Source: Methanolacinia petrolearia DSM 11571 (GTDB taxonomy: Archaea; Halobacteriota; Methanomicrobia; Methanomicrobiales; Methanomicrobiaceae). From it: a DNA stretch of 64,000 nucleotides. Positions 7,742-21,979 of the stretch are shown piece after piece. The stretch covers positions 1,674,001 to 1,738,000 of the forward strand of contig NC_014507.1 of NCBI RefSeq assembly GCF_000147875.1. Direction: 5' to 3'. A program made the position numbers and the translations under genes. The notes under the pieces are model-generated. The model searched no databases and had not been told where the DNA came from. It was given only the letters and a program-made list of their open reading frames with translations. Within the stretch, counting starts at the first letter, position 1, and each line of letters begins with the position of its first letter.

Positions 7742-8026
7742 TCAGGCAACCCCGGCACTGGCGGCCAGGCCGCCGGACGGCCCCTGCCCAGGGGCCTTGC
7801 CCTGAGATAGTTCTCTCATGCACGCCCGGGGACCGGCAAGGGTCCCCCGGGCTGTTTAATTTATTCTGCTATGACATGTTCCATTCCATACACGCCTTGA
7901 GTACACCGCGTTCCGCCACGCAGGGGATACTTGTCTATCCCCGGAGTGGCCTATCGCAAGGAGAGGCCCCGCGGTAGGGGCCGGTCCGCGAGCCTGCAGT
8001 GCGGCTCGCGGCGAGGGGTCGCCTGA
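7742..8026 (+). repeat. Family B structured unit B1 (reference description)
   Basis: About 285 bp, GC-rich, bounded by a terminal inverted repeat (TCAGGCAACCCC at the left, GGGGTCGCCTGA at the right). Inside, in order, are hairpins with stems GGCGGC/GCCGCC, GGCCCCTG/CAGGGGCC, GGGGACC/GGTCCCC, GGGGATA/TATCCCC, GGCC/GGCC, GGCCCCG/CGGGGCC and CCGCGAGCC/GGCTCGCGG. Together with the closing stem they could fold into one multibranch structure. Copies at five loci keep the stems while loops change (CGGT, AGGT or GGGT; CTTGTC or CTCGTC). No promoter or conserved reading frame is evident. B1 carries a T-G pair at the base of its first inner stem (CTGGCGGC...GCCGCCGG). Confidence 0.85.
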
Positions 8027-8056
8027 TTTGGATATGTTAGTATATTTAGATCTCAC

Positions 8057-8343
8057 TCAGGCAACCCCGGCACCGGCGGCCGAGCCGCCGGACGGCCCCT
8101 GCCCAGGGGCCTTGCCCTGAGATAGTTCTCTCATGCACGCCCGGGGACCGGCGAGGGTCCCACGGGCTGTTGAAGTTAGTTTTCTTCTCCGGTACCCCGT
8201 ACCGTACACGCCTTGAATACACCGCGTCCTGCCACGCAGGGGATACTCGTCTATCCCCGGAGTGGCCTATCACGATAGAGAGGCCCCGCGGTCGGGGCCG
8301 ATCCACGAGCCTGCTGTGCGGCTCGTGGCGAGGGGTCGCCTGA
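8057..8343 (+). repeat. Family B unit B2, with a compensating stem change
   Basis: Complete unit, joined to B1 by a 30-base linker that ends AGATCTCAC. Its last hairpin reads CCACGAGCC...GGCTCGTGG (8303-8328) instead of CCGCGAGCC...GGCTCGCGG: both sides of one base pair changed, G-C to A-T, keeping the stem. Confidence 0.85.
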
Positions 8344-8366
8344 TTTGGGTTGGTACGTTTAGATCT

Positions 8367-8503
8367 TCCCACGGGTTGTTGAATTTAGTTTGTTACGGTA
8401 TATTCCATTCCGTACACGCCTTGAATACACCGCGTCCAGCCACGCAGGGGATACTCGTCTATCCCCGGAGTGGCCTATCGCAAGGAGAGGCCCAGGGGTC
8501 GTC
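8367..8503 (+). repeat. Family B unit B3, internally deleted remnant
   Basis: The linker AGATCTT runs straight into the middle of a unit, so the left terminal repeat and first three hairpins are missing. The final two hairpins are also lost, CCCAGGGGTCGTC joining the right end directly. The 93 bases from here to the next gene hold nothing recognised. Confidence 0.75.
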
Positions 8504-12256: not shown

Positions 12257-13012
12257 ATGAACAACGGGACAGTTACAAGAAGAATCCCCGAGATCGATCT
12301 GTTCAGGGGAACTGCAGTAATGATGATGATCCTCTTTCATACCGTCTTCGACCTTTACTATTTCGGCCTCTTCAATATCGATATACATTCAGGCTTCTGG
12401 GGCGGTTTCGGGTATATCACCGGGTTCCTTTTCGTCTTCATCGCGGGAATATCGGCATGGATCAGCCGGATGAGAGCAGAGAGCAGGCTCGATGAAAAGG
12501 GAATCCTTATCAAATTCCTGAAAAGAGGCCTTTTCATATTCTCGATAGGGCTTGGAATAACTGCCGTGACCTGGTTCTTCGCGCCGAAAAGTGCAATAAT
12601 CTTCGGGACGCTTCACCTGATCGGTCTTTCAATAATCCTTGCACCACTCTTTTTCAGGTTCTCTGTTAAGAATATCTACATCGCAGCTGCGATAATCCTC
12701 GCCGGGCTGCTGATACAGGGCGTAAGCGGAGATCCTGCATTAACAATCATCGGAATACATGCACCTGACTTCTCCACTCTTGATTATAAACCGCTGATCC
12801 CGTGGTTCGGATATTTCCTTGCGGGCATTGCATTCTCGGCCTTCATGTACCCGAACGGAAGAGAAAGGAGCCGCCTGAGATCCGTAAAGATCCCGGCCCC
12901 GGAATTCATACAGTTGATCGGCAGGCACTCGCTTATCATTTACCTTGTTCACCAGCCGGTGATCATACTCCTGCTTTCGCTAATCTCCGGAAAAATGCTG
13001 TTGTCTTTTTAA
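12257..13012 (+). CDS. DUF1624 / HGSNAT-like multipass membrane protein
   Basis: 251 residues from ATG 12257; an in-frame TTG at 12248 would add three. It opens with the family signature RRIPEIDLFRGTAVMMMILFHTVFDLYYF, read as an acidic/basic motif running into TM1, with the histidine of LFHT in the membrane. Six or seven further hydrophobic segments follow. The family is related to heparan-alpha-glucosaminide N-acetyltransferase and YeiB-type transmembrane acyltransferases, so acyl transfer to an envelope glycan or lipid is plausible but unproven. Its 3' end overlaps the convergent adenine deaminase gene by four bases. Confidence 0.82.
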   Translation: MNNGTVTRRIPEIDLFRGTAVMMMILFHTVFDLYYFGLFNIDIHSGFWGGFGYITGFLFVFIAGISAWISRMRAESRLDEKGILIKFLKRGLFIFSIGLGITAVTWFFAPKSAIIFGTLHLIGLSIILAPLFFRFSVKNIYIAAAIILAGLLIQGVSGDPALTIIGIHAPDFSTLDYKPLIPWFGYFLAGIAFSAFMYPNGRERSRLRSVKIPAPEFIQLIGRHSLIIYLVHQPVIILLLSLISGKMLLSF

Positions 13013-14643
13013 TCAAAGACAGGCACATCAGTAAAAGAATTCACGTCGAATAAGCCCCGGTCTGTTATCCTCAGTTCGGGGATTACCGTCAGTGCAAGGA
13101 AGGAGAGATACATGAACGGATCCTTTAATGACGTCATTTTCTCAACCAGTTCGTTTATACGGGCAAGTTCGTCCACAACAGATTCGTAGGGGAGATCCGA
13201 CATTATCCCGCCGCATTCGAACGGAAGAACTGCTGTTTTTTCACCGCAGACTGCCGCCATTCCGCCTCTGCCGGAGGCCACGCATCTTATCGCTTCGATG
13301 ATCTCCTCATCGGACACGCCGACGGCGACCACATTATGGCAGTCGTGGGATACGCTGGATGCGATCGCACCTCTCTTCAGCCCGAAGCCTTTTACCAGCC
13401 CGGTGCCGAATCCCCCGCCCCTGTACCTGTCACATACAACGGCCTTCAGGATATCGTTCTCCAGATCCGGAACAAAATCCCCGTCGAGTTTGATGTCGAG
13501 CCTCTTCGTGAGGATCTCGCCTTCGACGATCGAGATGACCTTTGCCGTCCCCGCTCCTTTGATCCGCATTCCGCTCTTTTCCGGCACACGAAGGTTGAAA
13601 TCATATTTGATCCTGCCCGGAGGAGAATGGCCAGGATCGGTGAATTCTTTGCCGCCGATATATGTCTTTCGGACTTCAAACTCATTAGAGTCATCGATGA
13701 TACAGAAGTCAGCCCTCCTCCCCGGAGACACCGCACCGCGATCGTACAGGCGGAAATGATCAGAGGCGGATAGCGTCGCCATCCTGTAGGCAAGCTCCGG
13801 CCTGACACCGTATTCAACCGCTTTTCGGATACAGTCGTCGATATGCCCCGAATTACAGAGCATATCCGCATGCCTGTCGTCGGTTGCAAACGAGCACCTT
13901 GAAACCGTAATATCGTCGACCAGTGGAGCAAGAGCCTTCAGGTTCTTCTCGGTCGAGCCTTCCCTCATGAAGATGTGCATACCCGCCTTCAGCTTTTCAC
14001 GTGCCCCGGAAAGATCCGTGCATTCGTGCTCGCTTCCTATACCCTGCATGACATACGCATTGAGCTCCTTTCCTGTCAGGCCCGGGCAGTGTCCGTCGAT
14101 AGTATCGAAGATCTCCAGCTTTTCGTAGACATCATCCTGGCCGGATATCACACCGGGGTAGTTCATCATCTCCCCGAGACCGATAATGTGTCTGCGTCCC
14201 GAAAATCTCCTGATATCCTCCGGGCCGAGTACTGCACCGCCCATATCGGCAGGCGTCGCAGGCACGCATGACGGAACCATGTATTCGATATTCAGGTCCG
14301 TCTTGTTCGCTTCCGACAGCATATATTCTATTCCCGCAGAACCCGCAACATTGGCGATCTCGTGCGGGTCCGCGATAACAGTCGTCGTCCCGTGGGGGAT
14401 TACAAGGCGGCCGTATTCGGAGGGTGTCAAAAGAGAGCTTTCTATATGAACATGAGAATCGATGAGTCCGGGAATCACCCTCGCACCTTCGAGGTCGATC
14501 TCTTCTCTCCCTGAATAGTCCCCCTTACCAATGACGATTCCGTCACTCACCGCAAAGTCGCACAGGTCCCATTTGCAGTCGAACGGACAAAAAAGCTCGG
14601 CATTCAGGAATACGATATCCGCAGGCGCTTTCCCCAGCGCCAC
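13009..14643 (-). CDS. ade: Adenine deaminase
   Basis: Converts adenine to hypoxanthine and ammonia for purine salvage. 544 residues with amidohydrolase metal motifs: DSHVHIESS, PHGTTTVIADPHEIANV, GHCPGLTGKELNAYV, GIGSEHE and FATDDRHADML, followed by the C-terminal ade domain. The given start is GTG (14643), but it has no Shine-Dalgarno site. GAGGTG lies ~30 bases upstream, and the in-frame codons between encode AAKDLLPVALGKAPADIV, which resembles the usual family N-terminus. The true start may therefore be an ATA codon at 14667 or 14670. It follows the lipoprotein gene on the same strand with almost no gap. Confidence 0.93.
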   Translation of the reverse strand: MALGKAPADIVFLNAELFCPFDCKWDLCDFAVSDGIVIGKGDYSGREEIDLEGARVIPGLIDSHVHIESSLLTPSEYGRLVIPHGTTTVIADPHEIANVAGSAGIEYMLSEANKTDLNIEYMVPSCVPATPADMGGAVLGPEDIRRFSGRRHIIGLGEMMNYPGVISGQDDVYEKLEIFDTIDGHCPGLTGKELNAYVMQGIGSEHECTDLSGAREKLKAGMHIFMREGSTEKNLKALAPLVDDITVSRCSFATDDRHADMLCNSGHIDDCIRKAVEYGVRPELAYRMATLSASDHFRLYDRGAVSPGRRADFCIIDDSNEFEVRKTYIGGKEFTDPGHSPPGRIKYDFNLRVPEKSGMRIKGAGTAKVISIVEGEILTKRLDIKLDGDFVPDLENDILKAVVCDRYRGGGFGTGLVKGFGLKRGAIASSVSHDCHNVVAVGVSDEEIIEAIRCVASGRGGMAAVCGEKTAVLPFECGGIMSDLPYESVVDELARINELVEKMTSLKDPFMYLSFLALTVIPELRITDRGLFDVNSFTDVPVFD

Positions 14644-15129: not shown

Positions 15130-15193
15130 GACACCTTAGATCCCCTGTCCTGATTCCAATAAACTTTTTGGCTCTTTGCTGTTCATGTTTCTC
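15130..15193 (+). repeat. Conserved leader of the second family B array
   Basis: The stretch from TTAGATCCCCTGTCCTG through AATAAACTTTTTGGCTCTTTGCTG is nearly repeated before the third array (20388-20448) and, reversed, beside the array at 54.2 kb. It always lies immediately before the first unit. No canonical TATA box is clear in it. Confidence 0.6.
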
Positions 15194-15477
15194 TCAGGCG
15201 ACCCCGGCACCGGCGGCCGAGCCGCAGGACGGCCCCTGCACAGGGGCCTTGCCCTGAGATAATTTTCTCATTGCACGCCCGGGGACCGACGAGGGTCCCG
15301 GACTATTTTATTTATTTTGCTACGACAGGTTCCTTTCCGTACACGCCTTGAATAAACCGCGTCCCGCCACGCAGGGGATACTTGTCTATCCCCGGAGTGG
15401 CCTATCACAATAGAGAGGCCCCGGGGTCGGGGCCGGTCCGCGAGCCTGCAGTGCGGCTCGCGGCGAGGGGTCGTCGA
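15194..15477 (+). repeat. Family B unit B4
   Basis: Complete unit. Its first inner stem has one mismatch (GGCGGCCGAGCCGCAGG), and the second loop is CAC rather than CCC. It is followed by a ~36-base insert (15478-15513) that also follows unit B8, before a second copy of the right-end sequence TCGTCTGA. Confidence 0.85.
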
Positions 15478-15543
15478 CAATGCACCTGATAAATATTTGA
15501 TCAGATCGTCTGATTTAGATATGTTAGTAAGTTCAGACCTTAC

Positions 15544-15825
15544 TCAGGCGACCCCGGCACCAGCGGCCGAGCCGCTGGACGGCCCCTGCCCAGTGGCCTT
15601 GCCCTAAGATAATTCTCCCATTGCACGCCCGGGGACCGGCAGGGGTCCCCGGACTGCTGAAGTTAGTTTTTTTTCCGGTACTTCTTTCCGTACACGCCTT
15701 GAGTACACCGCGTCCCGCCACGCAGGGGATACTTGTCTATCCCCGGAGTGGCCTATCGCAAGGAGAGGCCCCGAGGTCGGGGCCGGTCCGCGGGCCTGCA
15801 GTGCGGCTCGCGGCGAGGGGTTGCC
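15544..15825 (+). repeat. Family B unit B5, with a compensating stem change
   Basis: Complete unit. The first inner hairpin reads CAGCGGC...GCCGCTG where other copies have CGGCGGC...GCCGCCG: a G-C pair replaced by A-T on both sides. The second hairpin has one mismatch (CAGTGG). The right end is the alternative type GGGGTTGCCAAAG. Confidence 0.85.
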
Positions 15826-15874
15826 AAAGATGTGATCGAGGGATACCACAGTTCTTTGCTGTCTCATGTATTTC

Positions 15875-15991
15875 TCAGGCGACCCCGGCACCGGCGGCCG
15901 AGCCGCCGGACGGCCCCTGCACAGGGGCCTTGCCCTAAGATAATCTTCCAACGGCACGCCCGGGGGACCGGCAAGGGTCCCCGGGCTGTTT
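15875..15991 (+). repeat. Family B unit B6, truncated terminal unit
   Basis: Only the first three hairpins are present; the unit stops after GGGCTGTTTATT. The next ~100 bases (to about 16110) contain a tail, GATTCTTTAGATCCCTTGTCC... and ...CGCCCGTCATGAGG, matched at the ends of the arrays near 22.0 kb and 53.8 kb. Confidence 0.8.
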
Positions 15992-16110
15992 ATTCGCTTT
16001 TGTTTTGAAATCCTGATTGAGATTCTTTAGATCCCTTGTCCTGGTTCCGATAGACGTTGTAGATTATTATCGGTTTTTGTGTGACGGAGCCGCCCGTCAT
16101 GAGGGTTTAA

Positions 16111-16203: not shown

Positions 16204-16217
16204 AAGGGGGAATCTGA

Positions 16218-17057
16218 ATTTCCATAATTACATTTGCCCATCATAAAGGAGGAACAGGAAAAACCACATCCTGTATAAATATTGCAGGATTTTTACAGAA
16301 GAAAGGGGAGAAGGTTCTTGTTATCGACTGCGACCCGCAGGCCAACGCCACCTCGGGTCTCGGAATAAACCCTGACGAATGCAGCGTAAATATGTACGAT
16401 GTATATATGAACGCATTCGAGGGTTTTCCGGACGTATCCATAAAGGATGTCATCGTCGATACCGAATCGGGGATATCACTCGCTCCTGCTTCCCTCGATC
16501 TCGTAGGCGTAGAGCCGTATCTCTACAGTATCGACGACAGGCTGACTGTGCTGAAAGAATCGCTGAAACCGGTAGAAAACGAATACGATCACATCCTTAT
16601 AGACACTCCGCCGAGCCTGGGCCAGTTCGTCCTCAACGGCTTCATTGCTGCGGACCGGATCATAATCAACCTCGACAGCGGGATGTTCGCACAGAAAGGA
16701 GTAGACAACCTGAAAGCGATCTTTGAAGATATTAAAGAGATTACAGGACGGAGGAAGAGCGCCGACATGGCAATCATCACGAAGACCGGAGATCTTCACG
16801 AGACGAGATCATCTTTCCAGGAGATCGCCCTGATAATAAAAAAGATGCTGAAGGCGGCAGGTGAAGATGAAAATAGCGAAAGAGAGAAGGAGATCGAATC
16901 CATGCTCTCATCATTTGCAGGCAGAACATGCTCCGTGCCCTACGACTACAATATAATAAAGGCACAGCTGAAAGGGCTGCCGATATCGCATCTTTTTCCC
17001 GACAGCCCCGCAGCAGCAGCCTACAGGGAGATTGCAGAAATAATCAGCGTTTGGTGA
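16218..17057 (+). CDS. parA: ParA/MinD-type partition ATPase, AUU start codon
   Basis: 279 residues. The start is read as ATT at 16218: an in-frame TGA lies directly before it (16215-16217), no ATG occurs in frame until 16392, and GGGGG lies seven bases upstream. From there the frame reads [16 protein letters not shown], the deviant Walker A motif with its signature lysine, then [13 protein letters not shown] (Walker A') and HILIDTPPS (Walker B). The in-frame ATG at 16392 would delete the whole nucleotide-binding motif. ParA-type ATPases dimerise on ATP and position DNA or protein cargo. No parB is next to it; a soluble chemoreceptor gene starts five bases later, suggesting the cargo is a chemoreceptor cluster. 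Confidence 0.9.
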
Positions 17058-17061
17058 TATT

Positions 17062-19503
17062 ATGGAAAAAGAATATAATAATTCCAAAAGACCGGGAAGA
17101 AAGGCACTCTTTGTCGGTGCTACAGCCAGACCTGCCTCCGCACCTGAGATTAAGAGCGAAGATCCGGGTAAGGAATTTACCGCCCTGGTCCTTGAGACGA
17201 TAGACAAATTTTGTTCGGGAGAAAAAGAGGCCAGGATTCAGGCTGAGAATATCCCCGGAGAATATACCCCTGCGGCAGATTCAATAAACGGTTTGCTCGA
17301 CACCCTCGCATCCGCCGCCCCGGGAACAGGAGAAGAAAATTCCGGCGAACTCGAATCGCTGTTAAAAGATCTCGAGGAAAAACTCGGCTCTTCAGAAGAG
17401 GAACTGGAAACCGCAAGAGAAGAAGTCTCCAGGCTGAACGATATAATAAAGCAAAAAGAAGACGAGATACCGGAGACCCCCGAAGCGGACCTGAAGGAAC
17501 TTGAAGACAGGTATAATTCCGAGATTGAAGAATTAAAACAAAAGATCCTCCTAAAAGAAGAAGAGAGCCTGAAAAGAGCTGAAGAGATCCGGGCTGAACT
17601 CGAAGAGAAACTGCAGGATGCCGAATCCGGATTAAAAAGGGCGGAGGAAGAGAAAGAACAGCTTTCCGGTCGATACGAAGACAGGTTAAAACAGCAGACT
17701 CAGAAGGCTTCCGGACTTGAAGAGACCAACGGAAGGCTCTTAAAAGAGATAGAGAAATTAAAATCGGAATCCGGAAAGATCGACGAATTAAACAAAAAGA
17801 TCTCTCAGAAAGAGGAAGAGAAACGTGCCCTCCATGCCAGAATAACGCAGGCGGAAGAAGACAAAAAGAAACTTGTCAGGCAGAGCGGAGAGAAGATCGA
17901 ACAATACACGAACCGGATCGCCATTCTAGAAGACGAGAATAAAAAACTCTCTGAGAAACTCAACGAACTCTCCCTGAAAGAAAAAACAGAAAAGGAAGAG
18001 ATAAGAGCAAAAATCGCCGAAGTCGAAGTTTTGAAACAGAGATCAGAGACGATCGTCCAGCAAAACCCGATGCCTATCCTCCTGATGAACGCGGGATTCG
18101 ATATACTCGTTGCAAACTCGGCATATGAAGAGATGAGCGGAATATCCCTGCATAAAATCACGAAGATGAATGCGAGAGATTTCAAGATATTAAAGCAGGA
18201 AGGCGAAGGTCTCGGGTATGCAGTCAAGAACAAGACCCGTGCCAAAGGCGAGATAGAGATTGAGATGCCGTCCGGGATCCATATTCTCGAACAGTACTCA
18301 ATTCCCATATTAAACAATAATAAAGAGCTCAAAAATATCCTGGCGGTCTACAACGATATTACCGAAATAAGAAGAAAGGATGCAGAAATAGAGGAGATCA
18401 GGCAAAAAGAGAAAGAGGAGGCAAAAATACTCTCGGAAAGCGCCGATATTATCACCGAAAAGATGATCGGTATGACATCAGGCGACCTGACGGTAAAAGC
18501 AGAGATATTTAAAGGAGATCCCCTCGCAGTCCTGAAGACCAACTTCAATAAATCGGTCGAAGAATTCAGTAATCTGATCTCCGACATAAATGAAAAGGCA
18601 AATATCCTTGAAGGAACATCCGAAGAGCTCAGCACGAACAGCGACGATATAGCGAGGGCAAATGAAAACCTTGCCCTGGTTTCAGAAGAATCCGCCGAGT
18701 TCCTCAAAGACCTGATGGACAGGTTCGAAAAGATCAACCTCAGCATCTCCGACCTCTCGGCTTCTATAGAGGAGATCTCGAGCACATCCCAGGAGGTTAC
18801 AAAACAGGCGAACCAGGCGGCGGTCGAAGGAAAAAATGCAGCTGAAATAGGCAGGGAAGCCTCGGAAAAGATGGAAAATGTCGGAAAGATCTCACAGCAG
18901 AGCGTAACCGAGATCAATCTCCTCAACCAGGAGATGTACAAGATCAACGAGATCATAAAGCTCATCCGGGGCATTGCCGAACAGACGAACATGCTGGCTT
19001 TAAATGCAGCTATCGAAGCCGCGAGGGCAGGAGAACACGGACGCGGATTTGCTGTTGTTGCAGGAGAAGTCAAGAATCTTGCCGGCGAATCAAAGGAAGC
19101 GACGCAGAAGATCGAACAGCTTATATCCGGAATTCAGCAGAACAGCGACAAGACTGTAGAATCCATGAGACATGCCGACGAAGAGATCCAGGCCGGCATT
19201 ACAAGTGTAAACCAGGCTGTAGAAGCGCTCAACAACATAGCACGGGACATTGAAGTGGCTTCAAGAGGCATCACGGAGATCTCGCACGCGACCGAAACGC
19301 AGGCAAACGATATCAATGCATTCATGAGAAACATCGAGGAGGCCAATGCCCTCGCCAGCGGCAACCTTGAAAAGCTAGAAGGAATGGCCGCTATGGCAGA
19401 GGAGATCAGCGCAACAACCGAGGAAGTGGGAAGCATATCCCACGAAATGCACGATCTTTCCTCGGACCTGCAGAACACGATGAAAAAGTTCAGGATGGAT
19501 TAA
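17062..19503 (+). CDS. Cytosolic methyl-accepting chemotaxis protein with long coiled coil and PAS
   Basis: 813 residues, no TM segment, so probably a cytoplasmic receptor. Order: a short HAMP-like N-terminal unit (about 33-90), a very long Glu/Lys coiled coil (about 95-335), a PAS domain (about 340-440, [25 protein letters not shown]), a HAMP-like segment (about 460-510), and the MCP signalling hairpin with tip [20 protein letters not shown] and [15 protein letters not shown]. Gln/Glu pairs in the signalling helices are potential methylation sites for the CheR encoded next. It is co-transcribed with the ParA gene (five-base gap). The PAS domain may sense redox state or a ligand. Confidence 0.93.
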
Positions 19504-19566
19504 ATTCGTGTCAAAATTCCATAACTTATTATTTTTAAAAGCATAACTAAAACTAAAGGTTCTTTC

Positions 19567-20364
19567 ATGGAGGATAACGATTTTCTTTTGCTCAAGAGAA
19601 GTATTGAAAGGCTTCTCGCAATACAGTGCGGATCATACAAGGAAGATTACATAAAACGCCGTGTGCTGTCCCGGATGAGGATTCGGGGAAAAGAGAACTA
19701 TAAAGATTACAACACCGTCCTTGTCGCGGAAAAAGACGAGCAGGAGGCGCTCAGAAACGCACTTACAATAAATGTCACGAAATTCTGGAGAGACAAAGAG
19801 GTCTTCGACCTGATAAAGAGCGACATTATTCCCGATATAATAAGAAGAAAGGGAAAAGCGAGGATATGGAGTGCAGGATGTTCGACGGGAGAAGAGCCTT
19901 ACACTCTCGCCCTGATCGCATACGATCTCACACGCCTCAAACCCGACTCGCAGGTTACGATATATGCAACCGACATCGACAGGGAAGTCCTGAAAAAGGC
20001 CAAAGAAGGGATATACGACTCCAAATCTCTCGAAAACCTCTCGGAAGGCCAGATAAGGAGGCACTTCACCCAGATTGAAGACGGAAAATTCCAGGTCAAG
20101 CAGCACCTGAAGGACATGGTGCGGTTCTCATGGCACGACCTCATGAGCGGAAAACCTGCGGCGAATTACCTGGATATCGTTACATGCCGCAATGTGACAA
20201 TTTACTTTACGGAGCAGCAGAAGAACGATCTCGCAAAGATGTTCCACCCGGCGCTTGTAATGGACGGCTATTACATCATGGGAAAAACAGAATTCATGGC
20301 AAGAGAGCTTGAAAGCCTCTATAAGCCGTACAATGCGCTTCAAAAAATATACAAGAAAGCATAA
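19567..20364 (+). CDS. cheR: Chemotaxis methyltransferase CheR
   Basis: Transfers methyl groups from S-adenosylmethionine to glutamates of chemoreceptors. 265 residues: helical N-domain (1-65), the INVTKFWRDKEVF motif at 69-81, SAM-binding ARIWSAGCSTGEEPY at 98-112, ATDIDREVL, and the family's CRNVTIYF segment. ATG at 19567; TTTAAAAGC at about 19533-19541 could be a weak TATA element, so it may have its own promoter 63 bases after the receptor gene. With ParA and the receptor it forms a compact chemosensory module that lacks CheA/CheW here; those must be supplied from elsewhere. Confidence 0.95.
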   Translation: MEDNDFLLLKRSIERLLAIQCGSYKEDYIKRRVLSRMRIRGKENYKDYNTVLVAEKDEQEALRNALTINVTKFWRDKEVFDLIKSDIIPDIIRRKGKARIWSAGCSTGEEPYTLALIAYDLTRLKPDSQVTIYATDIDREVLKKAKEGIYDSKSLENLSEGQIRRHFTQIEDGKFQVKQHLKDMVRFSWHDLMSGKPAANYLDIVTCRNVTIYFTEQQKNDLAKMFHPALVMDGYYIMGKTEFMARELESLYKPYNALQKIYKKA

Positions 20365-20448: not shown

Positions 20449-20484
20449 TCCGGCGACCCCGGCACCGGCGAGGGGTCGTCTGAC
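20449..20484 (+). repeat. Family B unit B7, 36-base deletion remnant
   Basis: Only the two ends remain: the left terminal sequence GGCGACCCCGGCACCGGCG is fused to the right end GAGGGGTCGTCTGA, removing all inner hairpins. The closing inverted repeat itself survives. Confidence 0.75.
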
Positions 20485-20496
20485 TTGGCCATTTTA

Positions 20497-20779
20497 GCGA
20501 CCCCGGCACCGGCGGCCAGGTCCGCCGGACGGCCCCTACCCAGGGGCCTTGCCTTAAGATAATTCTCTCATTGCACGCCCGGGGACCGGCGAGGGTCCCC
20601 GGACTGTTGAAGTTAGTTTTTTTTTCCGGTACTTCTTTCCGTACACGCCTTGAGTACACCGCGTCCCGCCACGTAGGGGATACTCGTCTATCCCCGGAGT
20701 GGCCTGTCACGATAGAGAGGCCCCGCGGTCGGGGCCGGTCCGCGGGCCTGCTGTGCGGCTCGCGGCGAGGGGTCGTCGA
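20497..20779 (+). repeat. Family B unit B8
   Basis: Complete apart from the first few bases of the left terminal repeat. The first inner hairpin has an enlarged loop (GGCGGCCAGGTCCGCC), shared with B9-B11. The last stem is CCGCGGGCC...GGCTCGCGG, with a G-T pair where other units have A-T. The ~36-base insert seen after B4 follows it. Confidence 0.85.
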
Positions 20780-20846
20780 CAATGCACCTAATGAATATCT
20801 GATCAAGGTCGTCTGATTTGGCCATTTTAGTACGTTCAGATCTTTC

Positions 20847-21132
20847 TCAGGCGACCCCGGCACCGGCGGCCAGGTCCGCCGGACGGCCCCTCCCCAGGGG
20901 CCTTGCCTTAAGATAATTTTCTCATGGCACGCCCGGGGACCGGCGAGGGTCCCCGGACTGTTGAAATTAGTTTTTTTTCCGGTACTTCTTTCCGTACACG
21001 CCTTGAGTACACCGCGTCCCGCCACGCAGGGGATACTTGTCTATCCCCGGAGTGGCCTATCACAAGGAGAGGCCCCGGGGTCGGGGCCGATCCGCGGGCC
21101 TGCTGTGCGGCTCGCGGCGAGGGGTCGTCTGA
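20847..21132 (+). repeat. Family B unit B9
   Basis: Complete unit with right end GGGGTCGTCTGA and linker ending CAGATCTTTC. The last stem has the G-T pair version (CCGCGGGCC / GGCTCGCGG). The second hairpin loop is CCC with the T lost (CCCCTCCCCAGGGG). Confidence 0.85.
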
Positions 21133-21162
21133 CTTGCCCATGTTAGTACGTTCAGATCTTTC

Positions 21163-21445
21163 TCAGGCGACCCCGGCACCGGCGGCCAGGTCCGCCGGAC
21201 GGCCCCTCCCCAGGGGCCTTGCCTGAAGATAATTCTCTCATTGCACGCCCGGGGACCGGCAAGGGTCCCCCGGGCTGTTTTATTTATTTTGCTACGACAG
21301 GTTCCTTTCCGTAGACGCCTTGAGTACACCGCGTCCCGCCACGCAGGGGATACTCGTCTATCCCCGGAGTGGCCTATCACAAGGAGAGGCCCCGAGGTCG
21401 GGGCCGGTCCGCGGGCCTGCTGTGCGGCTCGCGGCGAGGGGTTGC
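21163..21445 (+). repeat. Family B unit B10
   Basis: Complete unit. Its middle is of the second type (TTTTATTTATTTTGCTACGACAGG rather than the TTGAAGTTAG version), and the right end switches to GGGGTTGCCAAAG. The third hairpin is extended by pairing GCCCG with CGGGC. Confidence 0.85.
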
Positions 21446-21495
21446 CAAAGATGTGAGCGAGAGAGACCACAGCTCTTTGCTCTCTCTTGCCTTAC

Positions 21496-21780
21496 TCAGG
21501 CGACCCCGGCACCGGCGGCCAGGTCCGCCGGACGGCCCCTGCCCAGGGGCCTTGCCCTGAGATAATCATCTCATGGCACGCCCGGGGGACCGGCAAGGGT
21601 CCTCCGGGCTGTTTTATTTATTTTGCTACGACAGGTTTCTTTCCGTACACGCCTTGAGTACACCGCATCCCGCCACGCAGGGGATACTCGTCTATCCCCG
21701 GAGTGGCCTATCGCAAGGAGAGGCCCCGGGGTCGGGGCCGGTCCGCGAGCCTGCCGTGCGGCTCGCGGCGAGGGGTTGCC
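21496..21780 (+). repeat. Family B unit B11
   Basis: Complete unit with the second-type middle and the GGGGTTGCC right end. It is joined to the next unit by the CTCTTTGTTCTCTCATGCC linker that also forms part of the array leader. Confidence 0.85.
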
Positions 21781-21828
21781 AAAGATGTGATCGAGAGATA
21801 ACACAGCTCTTTGTTCTCTCATGCCTTT

Positions 21829-21979
21829 TTCGGCGACCCCGGCACCGGCGGCCGAGCCGCCGGACGGCCCCTGCCCAGGGGCCTTGCCTTAAGATAATCT
21901 TCTCATGGCACGCCCGGGGACCGGCAAGGGTCCCCTGGGCTGTTTTATTTATTTTGCTACGACAGGTTCCGTTCCGGTT
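21829..21979 (+). repeat. Family B unit B12, truncated terminal unit, with tail
   Basis: First three hairpins plus the start of the middle region; it stops at GACAGGTTCCGTTCCG. The following tail to about 22045 contains CGCCCGTCATGAGGATTTT, matching the tail after B6 near 16090. Confidence 0.8.

Follow-up and report, generated by a model that had tools for sequence, protein, structure and literature searches.

Three adjacent genes in the archaeon Methanolacinia petrolearia DSM 11571, encoding a ParA-like ATPase, a soluble methyl-accepting chemotaxis protein (MCP) and CheR, form one same-strand cassette that probably constitutes a ParA-type positioning system for cytoplasmic chemosensory arrays. 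We regard it as similar to the bacterial PpfA/TlpT system, and in some relatives to ParP, and put the probability of this reading at roughly 0.77. The cassette lies in a 64,000-nucleotide stretch of DNA (the window; positions 1674001-1738000 of contig NC_014507.1, from a closed 2.84-Mb, 99.9%-complete genome). The reading is carried by a short peptide near the N-terminus of the receptor, with the consensus [K/R]PGRKALF, which stays with this ParA while the domains of its partner change and which resembles the ParB peptides encoded beside ordinary ParAs. A first-pass annotation, made from the letters of the window alone, had noted the ParA-MCP-cheR linkage and proposed that the ParA segregates cytoplasmic chemosensory arrays. 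The linkage is confirmed as real; the proposal gains from the chemosensory partner with its ParB-like peptide, but its simple nucleoid version is weakened by missing DNA-binding arginines.

A distinct clade of ParA proteins linked to chemosensory genes

Pfam recognises all three products of the cassette (AAA_31 at 3e-48 and 164 bits, MCPsignal at 1e-43, CheR at 5e-55), and together with the sequence it places them where the first-pass annotation had them (Table 1). The spacing of five bases given there for parA and the MCP gene is in fact 4, counted from the parA stop codon to the receptor ATG, and 63 bases separate the MCP gene from cheR. The ParA has the hallmarks of the deviant Walker A family of ParA/MinD proteins, namely KGGxGKT with the signature lysine, DxDPQxN, a DxPPS Walker B motif and the ParA fold; K10, K15, D37, D39, D129, P131 and P132 are invariant in our alignment, and a Foldseek search with the model of a relative's ParA ranked Soj/ParA structures at the top. 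An archaeal MinD of the MinD4 type was ruled out, as the archaeal MinD model TIGR01969 gave the window ParA 83.5 bits against a cut-off of 201.75. A ParABS partition system was likewise ruled out: ParB_N (PF02195) has no match anywhere in this genome, so that the description of the ParA as parB-less holds genome-wide, and the downstream partners that could be typed are MCP or CheW proteins.

We searched for this ParA in successively wider sets of genomes. It occurred in 29 of 40 relatives, one of these hits being weak, and 57 of 392 genomes from the phylum were positive in a profile search, comprising 47 from the same order, 9 from family f10 and 1 from family f32. Further members came from a named scan, in Methanomicrobiales, Methanophagales (ANME-1) and Methanospirillum as well as in some bacterial or other genomes (Scalindua, Omnitrophota, Troglogloeales, a deltaproteobacterium and a groundwater euryarchaeote), with ordinary ParAs ranked below. 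The resulting set has 96 loci with 83 distinct ParAs, after exclusion of a weak homologue (L069) and the generic loci L155-L187. In the tree, 82 chemosensory ParAs stand apart from 5 generic ParAs with support of 100/100, and long branches, notably those of L147 and L187, leave the deep order unsure. The window ParA falls in this distinct clade, which spans Methanomicrobiales and ANME-1 and reaches a few genomes of bacterial or other origin. The first-pass annotation had suggested a search for the same gene pair in other archaea, and had counted consistent pairing of homologues with parB against its own proposal. The pair recurs across the whole archaeal order and beyond, so that the linkage is far beyond chance, and no pairing with parB was found in any clade locus with enough sequence, the partner there always being chemosensory.

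The chemosensory setting in M. petrolearia consists of 10 MCPs, 7 small CheW proteins and one CheA. From its N-terminus, which is short and basic, the cassette receptor runs through a long, charged coiled-coil-like stretch and then a weak PAS-like region to an MCP signalling domain. Its sequence holds no 19-residue window with a mean hydropathy of at least 1.6 and hence no transmembrane segment, in agreement with the first-pass annotation. None of the 10 MCPs has such a window, while a control membrane protein gave six such segments, so all recognised receptors of this genome look cytoplasmic.

A conserved tag at the N-terminus of the ParA partner

A downstream partner with the tag was found at 79 of the 83 distinct ParAs, using the pattern [G/A][R/K][K/R/Q][A/G/V][L/I/M/F][F/L] within the first 75 residues. 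Because the pattern itself fixes six tag positions, part of their conservation is built in; the search left -2, -1 and +7 free, and of these -2 is K/R in 71/79 and the residue before the glycine is P in 57/79. The median position of the glycine is residue 10, and 78/79 have it within the first 30 residues. As for the untagged loci, L136/L229 is one protein on contigs that end early, L149 has a frameshifted frame that still reads MTRPERAPGRKAY (APGRKAY), and the partner at L225 and L226 reads KPGRMALF. By comparison, only 1 of 522 other open reading frames of at least 200 residues from the same loci has the pattern, and this match is itself a second tagged chemoreceptor-like protein, from Methanogenium cariaci (L151:587-1706); two strict matches among the control frames were taken, by their pattern, as the GRMALF partners of L225/L226 and the Methanogenium MCP. 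Only one of the ten MCPs of M. petrolearia is tagged. The tag as a chance occurrence or a general feature of MCPs was rejected on these grounds, namely the other nine untagged MCPs and the control count.

At the level of whole genomes, a 21-base DNA pattern for PGRKALF, which misses variants such as KLGRKALF and KPGRQALF, occurred in 41/57 parA-positive vs 3/335 parA-negative genomes. A GRKALF match in one genome lacking parA (G002, locus L188) does not lie in an MCP, which also tells against a general MCP feature. One parA-positive genome has a second match to the tag pattern (G381:C51:527-547).

The proteins that carry the tag are diverse. They range from 354 to 1420 residues, and the tag is their only shared part. 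Among the 60 typed partners, 45 are MCPs and 15 have a C-terminal CheW domain (PAS-CheW); all ten CheW-type partners tested by Pfam scored above the cut-off, most with PAS domains in front, and the CheW-type label requires two changes on the ParA tree. The tag thus appears portable between components of the array. One partner protein, listed as both L127 and L058, does have one hydrophobic window (1.69), close to the N-terminus. In six Methanoregula loci (L063, L131, L133, L135, L137 and L220) the order is parA, untagged MCP, cheW, tagged MCP, cheR; since the tag stays on the distal partner despite the insertions, it is the tag that is conserved and not adjacency. That the tag remains with ParA while the array-binding domain is swapped is hard to explain unless ParA recognises it. 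The bacterial-type loci have a tagged MCP followed by cheW, cheY-like and sometimes cheB-like or cheA-like genes, where the cheY, cheB and cheA names come from our reading of the sequences. At L147, L148 and L154 (groundwater, Scalindua and Omnitrophota, respectively) the gene for the tagged MCP comes first in a set of cheW/cheY-like genes, and the L148 and L154 receptors each have about ten HAMP repeats.

The first-pass annotation had suggested that the long N-terminal extension and coiled coil of the receptor stimulate ParA. As receptor length varies and the tag also occurs on PAS-CheW proteins, the coiled coil is not needed for this, and the better candidate is the nine-residue tag near residue 10. 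The underlying idea of a ParB-like stimulus from the receptor N-terminus survives in part, in that a conserved ParB-like peptide is present in the sequence; its binding to ParA is predicted.

Likeness to ParB peptides and the ParA pocket

Ordinary ParAs with NQKGGVGKTT in the same scan offer a point of comparison. The protein encoded next to them starts with a ParB-type peptide, such as RRGLGRGLDALI, in 27/31 loci, while a 28th reads GQGLDALF. These N-termini have the form GRGLxAL, or the related GLGRGLxAL(I/L/F), and both of the two downstream proteins tested from generic ParA loci are ParB. As we read the letters, KRPGRKALF shares with the ParB peptide the G-R step and the A-L-hydrophobic end, and is two residues shorter.

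The pocket of ParA that receives the ParB arginine has been described (PMC12462528), and this was the basis for our comparison of pocket residues. We mapped it through the printed alignment to PDB 8ray, presumably the Myxococcus ParA, after verifying the numbering offset by hand at D58, D60 and N64. The equivalents of Y81, E82 and D110 in the arginine pocket are kept in the Methanomicrobiales ParAs, as Y60 in 68/68, D61 in 64/68 and D94 in 65/68. Around them, residues have changed and become fixed, Q136 and D171 both in 68/68. The arginine site therefore seems to have been retained and the remainder of the pocket rebuilt, as expected for a different peptide.

A proposed mechanism and its alternatives

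In the mechanism that we propose, the soluble receptor, or a PAS-CheW protein in some relatives, would use its C-terminal domain to join the CheA/CheW array while displaying the tag at its N-terminus. The role of the tag would be analogous to that of the ParB N-terminus, namely to bind the ATP-bound ParA dimer and stimulate ATP hydrolysis. Repeated binding and release could then move or space the array relative to the surface occupied by ParA-ATP, and daughter cells would thereby inherit receptors. Tag-ParA binding, ATPase stimulation and the localisation or segregation of arrays are steps that we infer from this analogy.

Several observations weigh against this mechanism, or against the version of it in which ParA operates on the nucleoid. 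At the pocket positions V116, E117, L152 and L187, the Methanomicrobiales ParAs have P100, Y/F101, Q136 and D171, with Q136 and D171 invariant in 68/68, so the ParB analogy does not hold residue for residue. An AlphaFold2 model speaks for neither side; it left the tag undocked in a disordered tail with a predicted local distance difference test (pLDDT) score below about 61. The input for this model, L108, was a natural read-through of ParA, TAA as Q and the partner N-terminus (46 rows), modelled as a monomer, whereas the pocket for ParB is situated where two ParA subunits meet; the ParA part had a mean pLDDT of 84.6. Several chemotactic Methanomicrobiales do not have the cassette, which is thus not essential for chemotaxis in the order. 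Most directly against the nucleoid version, arginine is the rule in generic ParAs at columns 193 (13/13), 242 (12/13) and 245 (11/13) of the alignment, and in the Methanomicrobiales ParAs column 242 is Y/F in 65/68, column 245 is mostly E/A/N, and arginine is not among the common residues at column 193. Matched by motif, these columns appear to correspond to Caulobacter R195, R221 and R224, which have been implicated in DNA binding and whose homologues matter in PpfA and PomZ, according to the available part of PMC7229837. The same partial source describes DNA binding by MipZ, which does not have these arginines, so their loss is not decisive, and R/K at position 189 (59/68) might compensate for it.

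The missing arginines speak for anchoring of the kind seen for ParC/ParP, where ParA would sit at a pole or other landmark, possibly close to the archaellum, and the tag would tether the array to it with no part played by the nucleoid. The CheW-type partners are reminiscent of ParP, which binds ParC by its N-terminus and enters the array by its C-terminus (PMC5706961, in the portion available), and the genome has archaellin-family genes near a che cluster away from the cassette, at ~2.066-2.078 Mb (cheF, a CheY-like gene, cheB, cheA, cheC and cheD). Against anchoring, no landmark protein was identified, none having been sought, and MipZ shows that DNA binding can do without the arginines. In addition, the last helix in the L108 model runs to the ParA end with no extra membrane-targeting tail evident, on which ground a membrane-anchored ParA was also rejected. 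Considering the lost arginines, their possible compensation and the MipZ precedent together, we regard a landmark mechanism as a serious rival, although we would not expect it to prevail. A basic N-terminus also calls to mind FrzCD, whose positively charged N-terminal tail binds the nucleoid (PMC5716589, consulted as an excerpt); the tag, with its preference for K/R at -2, might similarly bind DNA directly and leave ParA another role, such as regulation. This is improbable given that the tag hardly occurs outside parA loci and genomes with parA, that one half of it (ALF) is hydrophobic and near-invariant, and that it has a parallel in the ParB peptide that accompanies neighbouring ParA families.

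Least probable is a mere accident of genomic context, in which a ParA for replicon segregation happens to lie beside a gene with which it has nothing to do. DNA segregation is the usual task of ParA proteins, and the locus is syntenic in the order, so that shared descent alone could hold neighbours together: an adenine deaminase-like gene lies upstream of parA in 37/83 loci, and relatives of window genes 24220 and 24671 lie downstream in 25/83 and 21/83, many loci being too short to show them. The window copy of the upstream gene is at 13009-14643 on the minus strand, and we take it to encode adenine deaminase. Such an accident is hard to reconcile with the absence of ParB from the genome, and with a pairing that persists in ANME-1 and in bacterial and other genomes, through different surroundings, insertions and changed partner domains.

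Positioning by a tag-recognising ParA is therefore the reading that we favour. Only tentatively, and with rather more doubt than conviction, would we extend it to a new clade of dedicated chemosensory ParAs in archaea and bacteria that recognises a portable nine-residue tag moved between receptor and CheW scaffolds, with the Methanomicrobiales members placing arrays on a surface bound without the canonical arginines and the ParA level held down by an AUU/AUA/AUC start.

The parA start codon and features of the window

The start of parA is unusual. In the window an ATT directly follows an in-frame TGA, and the first in-frame ATG, GTG or TTG comes only after the Walker A motif. Among 65 Methanomicrobiales parA genes scoring at least 360 bits, the start position has ATT, ATA or ATC in 56, ATG in 8 and ACG in 1. 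A standard start is absent between the upstream stop and Walker A in 31/65; it occurs within six codons in 21/65, often as the GTG of a GGGGTG box or a TTG one codon on, and only further upstream in 5/65. Most relatives have GGTG-type boxes a few nucleotides upstream of the start. The retention of a non-AUG start across genera suggests deliberately low ParA synthesis. A GC-rich repeat of ~330-350 bases forms arrays that flank the cassette and also occur elsewhere in the window (positions 8000-8501, 15137-16002 and 20456-21958).

Table 1. Features of the cassette, in window coordinates.
Feature	Coordinates	Strand	Basis
Shine-Dalgarno-like GGGGGA, 6 nucleotides before the parA ATT start	16206..16211	+	Sequence
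parA-like gene, 279 residues, deviant Walker A, ATT start after in-frame TGA	16218..17057	+	Sequence, Pfam; model of a relative has ParA/Soj fold
parA stop codon	17055-17057	+	Sequence
Soluble MCP, 813 residues, ParA partner, ATG start at 17062	17062..19503	+	Pfam, hydropathy
N-terminal tag KRPGRKALF, MCP residues 9-17, predicted ParA-binding peptide	17086..17112	+	Conservation; comparison with ParB N-termini
Coiled-coil-like stretch, MCP residues ~93-329	17338..18048	+	SMC-type profile matches below cut-off; sequence
Weak PAS-like region, MCP residues ~327-437	18040..18372	+	Below Pfam cut-offs
MCP signalling domain PF00015, residues 595-763	18844..19350	+	Pfam
cheR, sole CheR match in the genome	19567..20364	+	Pfam, genome scan

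Relation to known systems and significance

The closest parallel is PpfA/TlpT of Rhodobacter sphaeroides (CheOp3), compared here by description. As in that system, the ParA gene is linked to a receptor without transmembrane segments whose N-terminus has a ParB-like peptide, judged as sequence, and CheR belongs to the cytoplasmic cluster of R. sphaeroides (PMC3964821, PMC5706961, both available in part). PpfA is reported to have DNA-binding arginines homologous to those of Soj (the accessible text of PMC7229837), whereas these columns are replaced in the window ParA, and for this reason we do not class it as a PpfA. Our system also differs in belonging to an archaeon with an archaellum and in that the partner in relatives can be a CheW protein. 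ParC/ParP of Vibrio, again compared by description, pairs an ATPase with an adaptor that has an N-terminal ATPase-binding region and a C-terminal array domain (PMC5706961, as far as available), like the PAS-CheW partners of relatives; in the window, by contrast, the partner is a receptor, and no HubP-like landmark is known here. With bacterial ParABS the cassette has in common the ParA fold, the conserved arginine pocket and a partner with an N-terminal basic-hydrophobic activator peptide; it differs in having no ParB, a chemosensory partner, and replaced pocket hydrophobics and DNA-binding arginines.

The first-pass annotation knew of no archaeal example. This needs qualification, as MinD4 (and MinD2) of Haloferax volcanii, members of the ParA/MinD superfamily, affect the position of the chemosensory array and archaella; these are of the MinD type and thus a different system, and the available part of that report mentions no tagged receptor partner (PMC11588486). 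In the literature that we searched, mostly without subscription papers, neither an archaeal pairing of ParA with a chemoreceptor nor the tag is described. A 2023 paper notes how little is known about the part that archaeal ParA/MinD ATPases play in subcellular organisation (PMC10241942, partial text), and the placement of large protein machines in archaea is still largely an open matter. Here, an order of methanogens offers an ATPase-cargo pair together with a defined peptide, and raises the questions of which surface a ParA without the arginines uses and why parA keeps a non-AUG start. More broadly, our results suggest that the ParB-style logic of a short activator tag plus ParA is common to both domains for chemosensory arrays, with a tag that can be moved between scaffolds.

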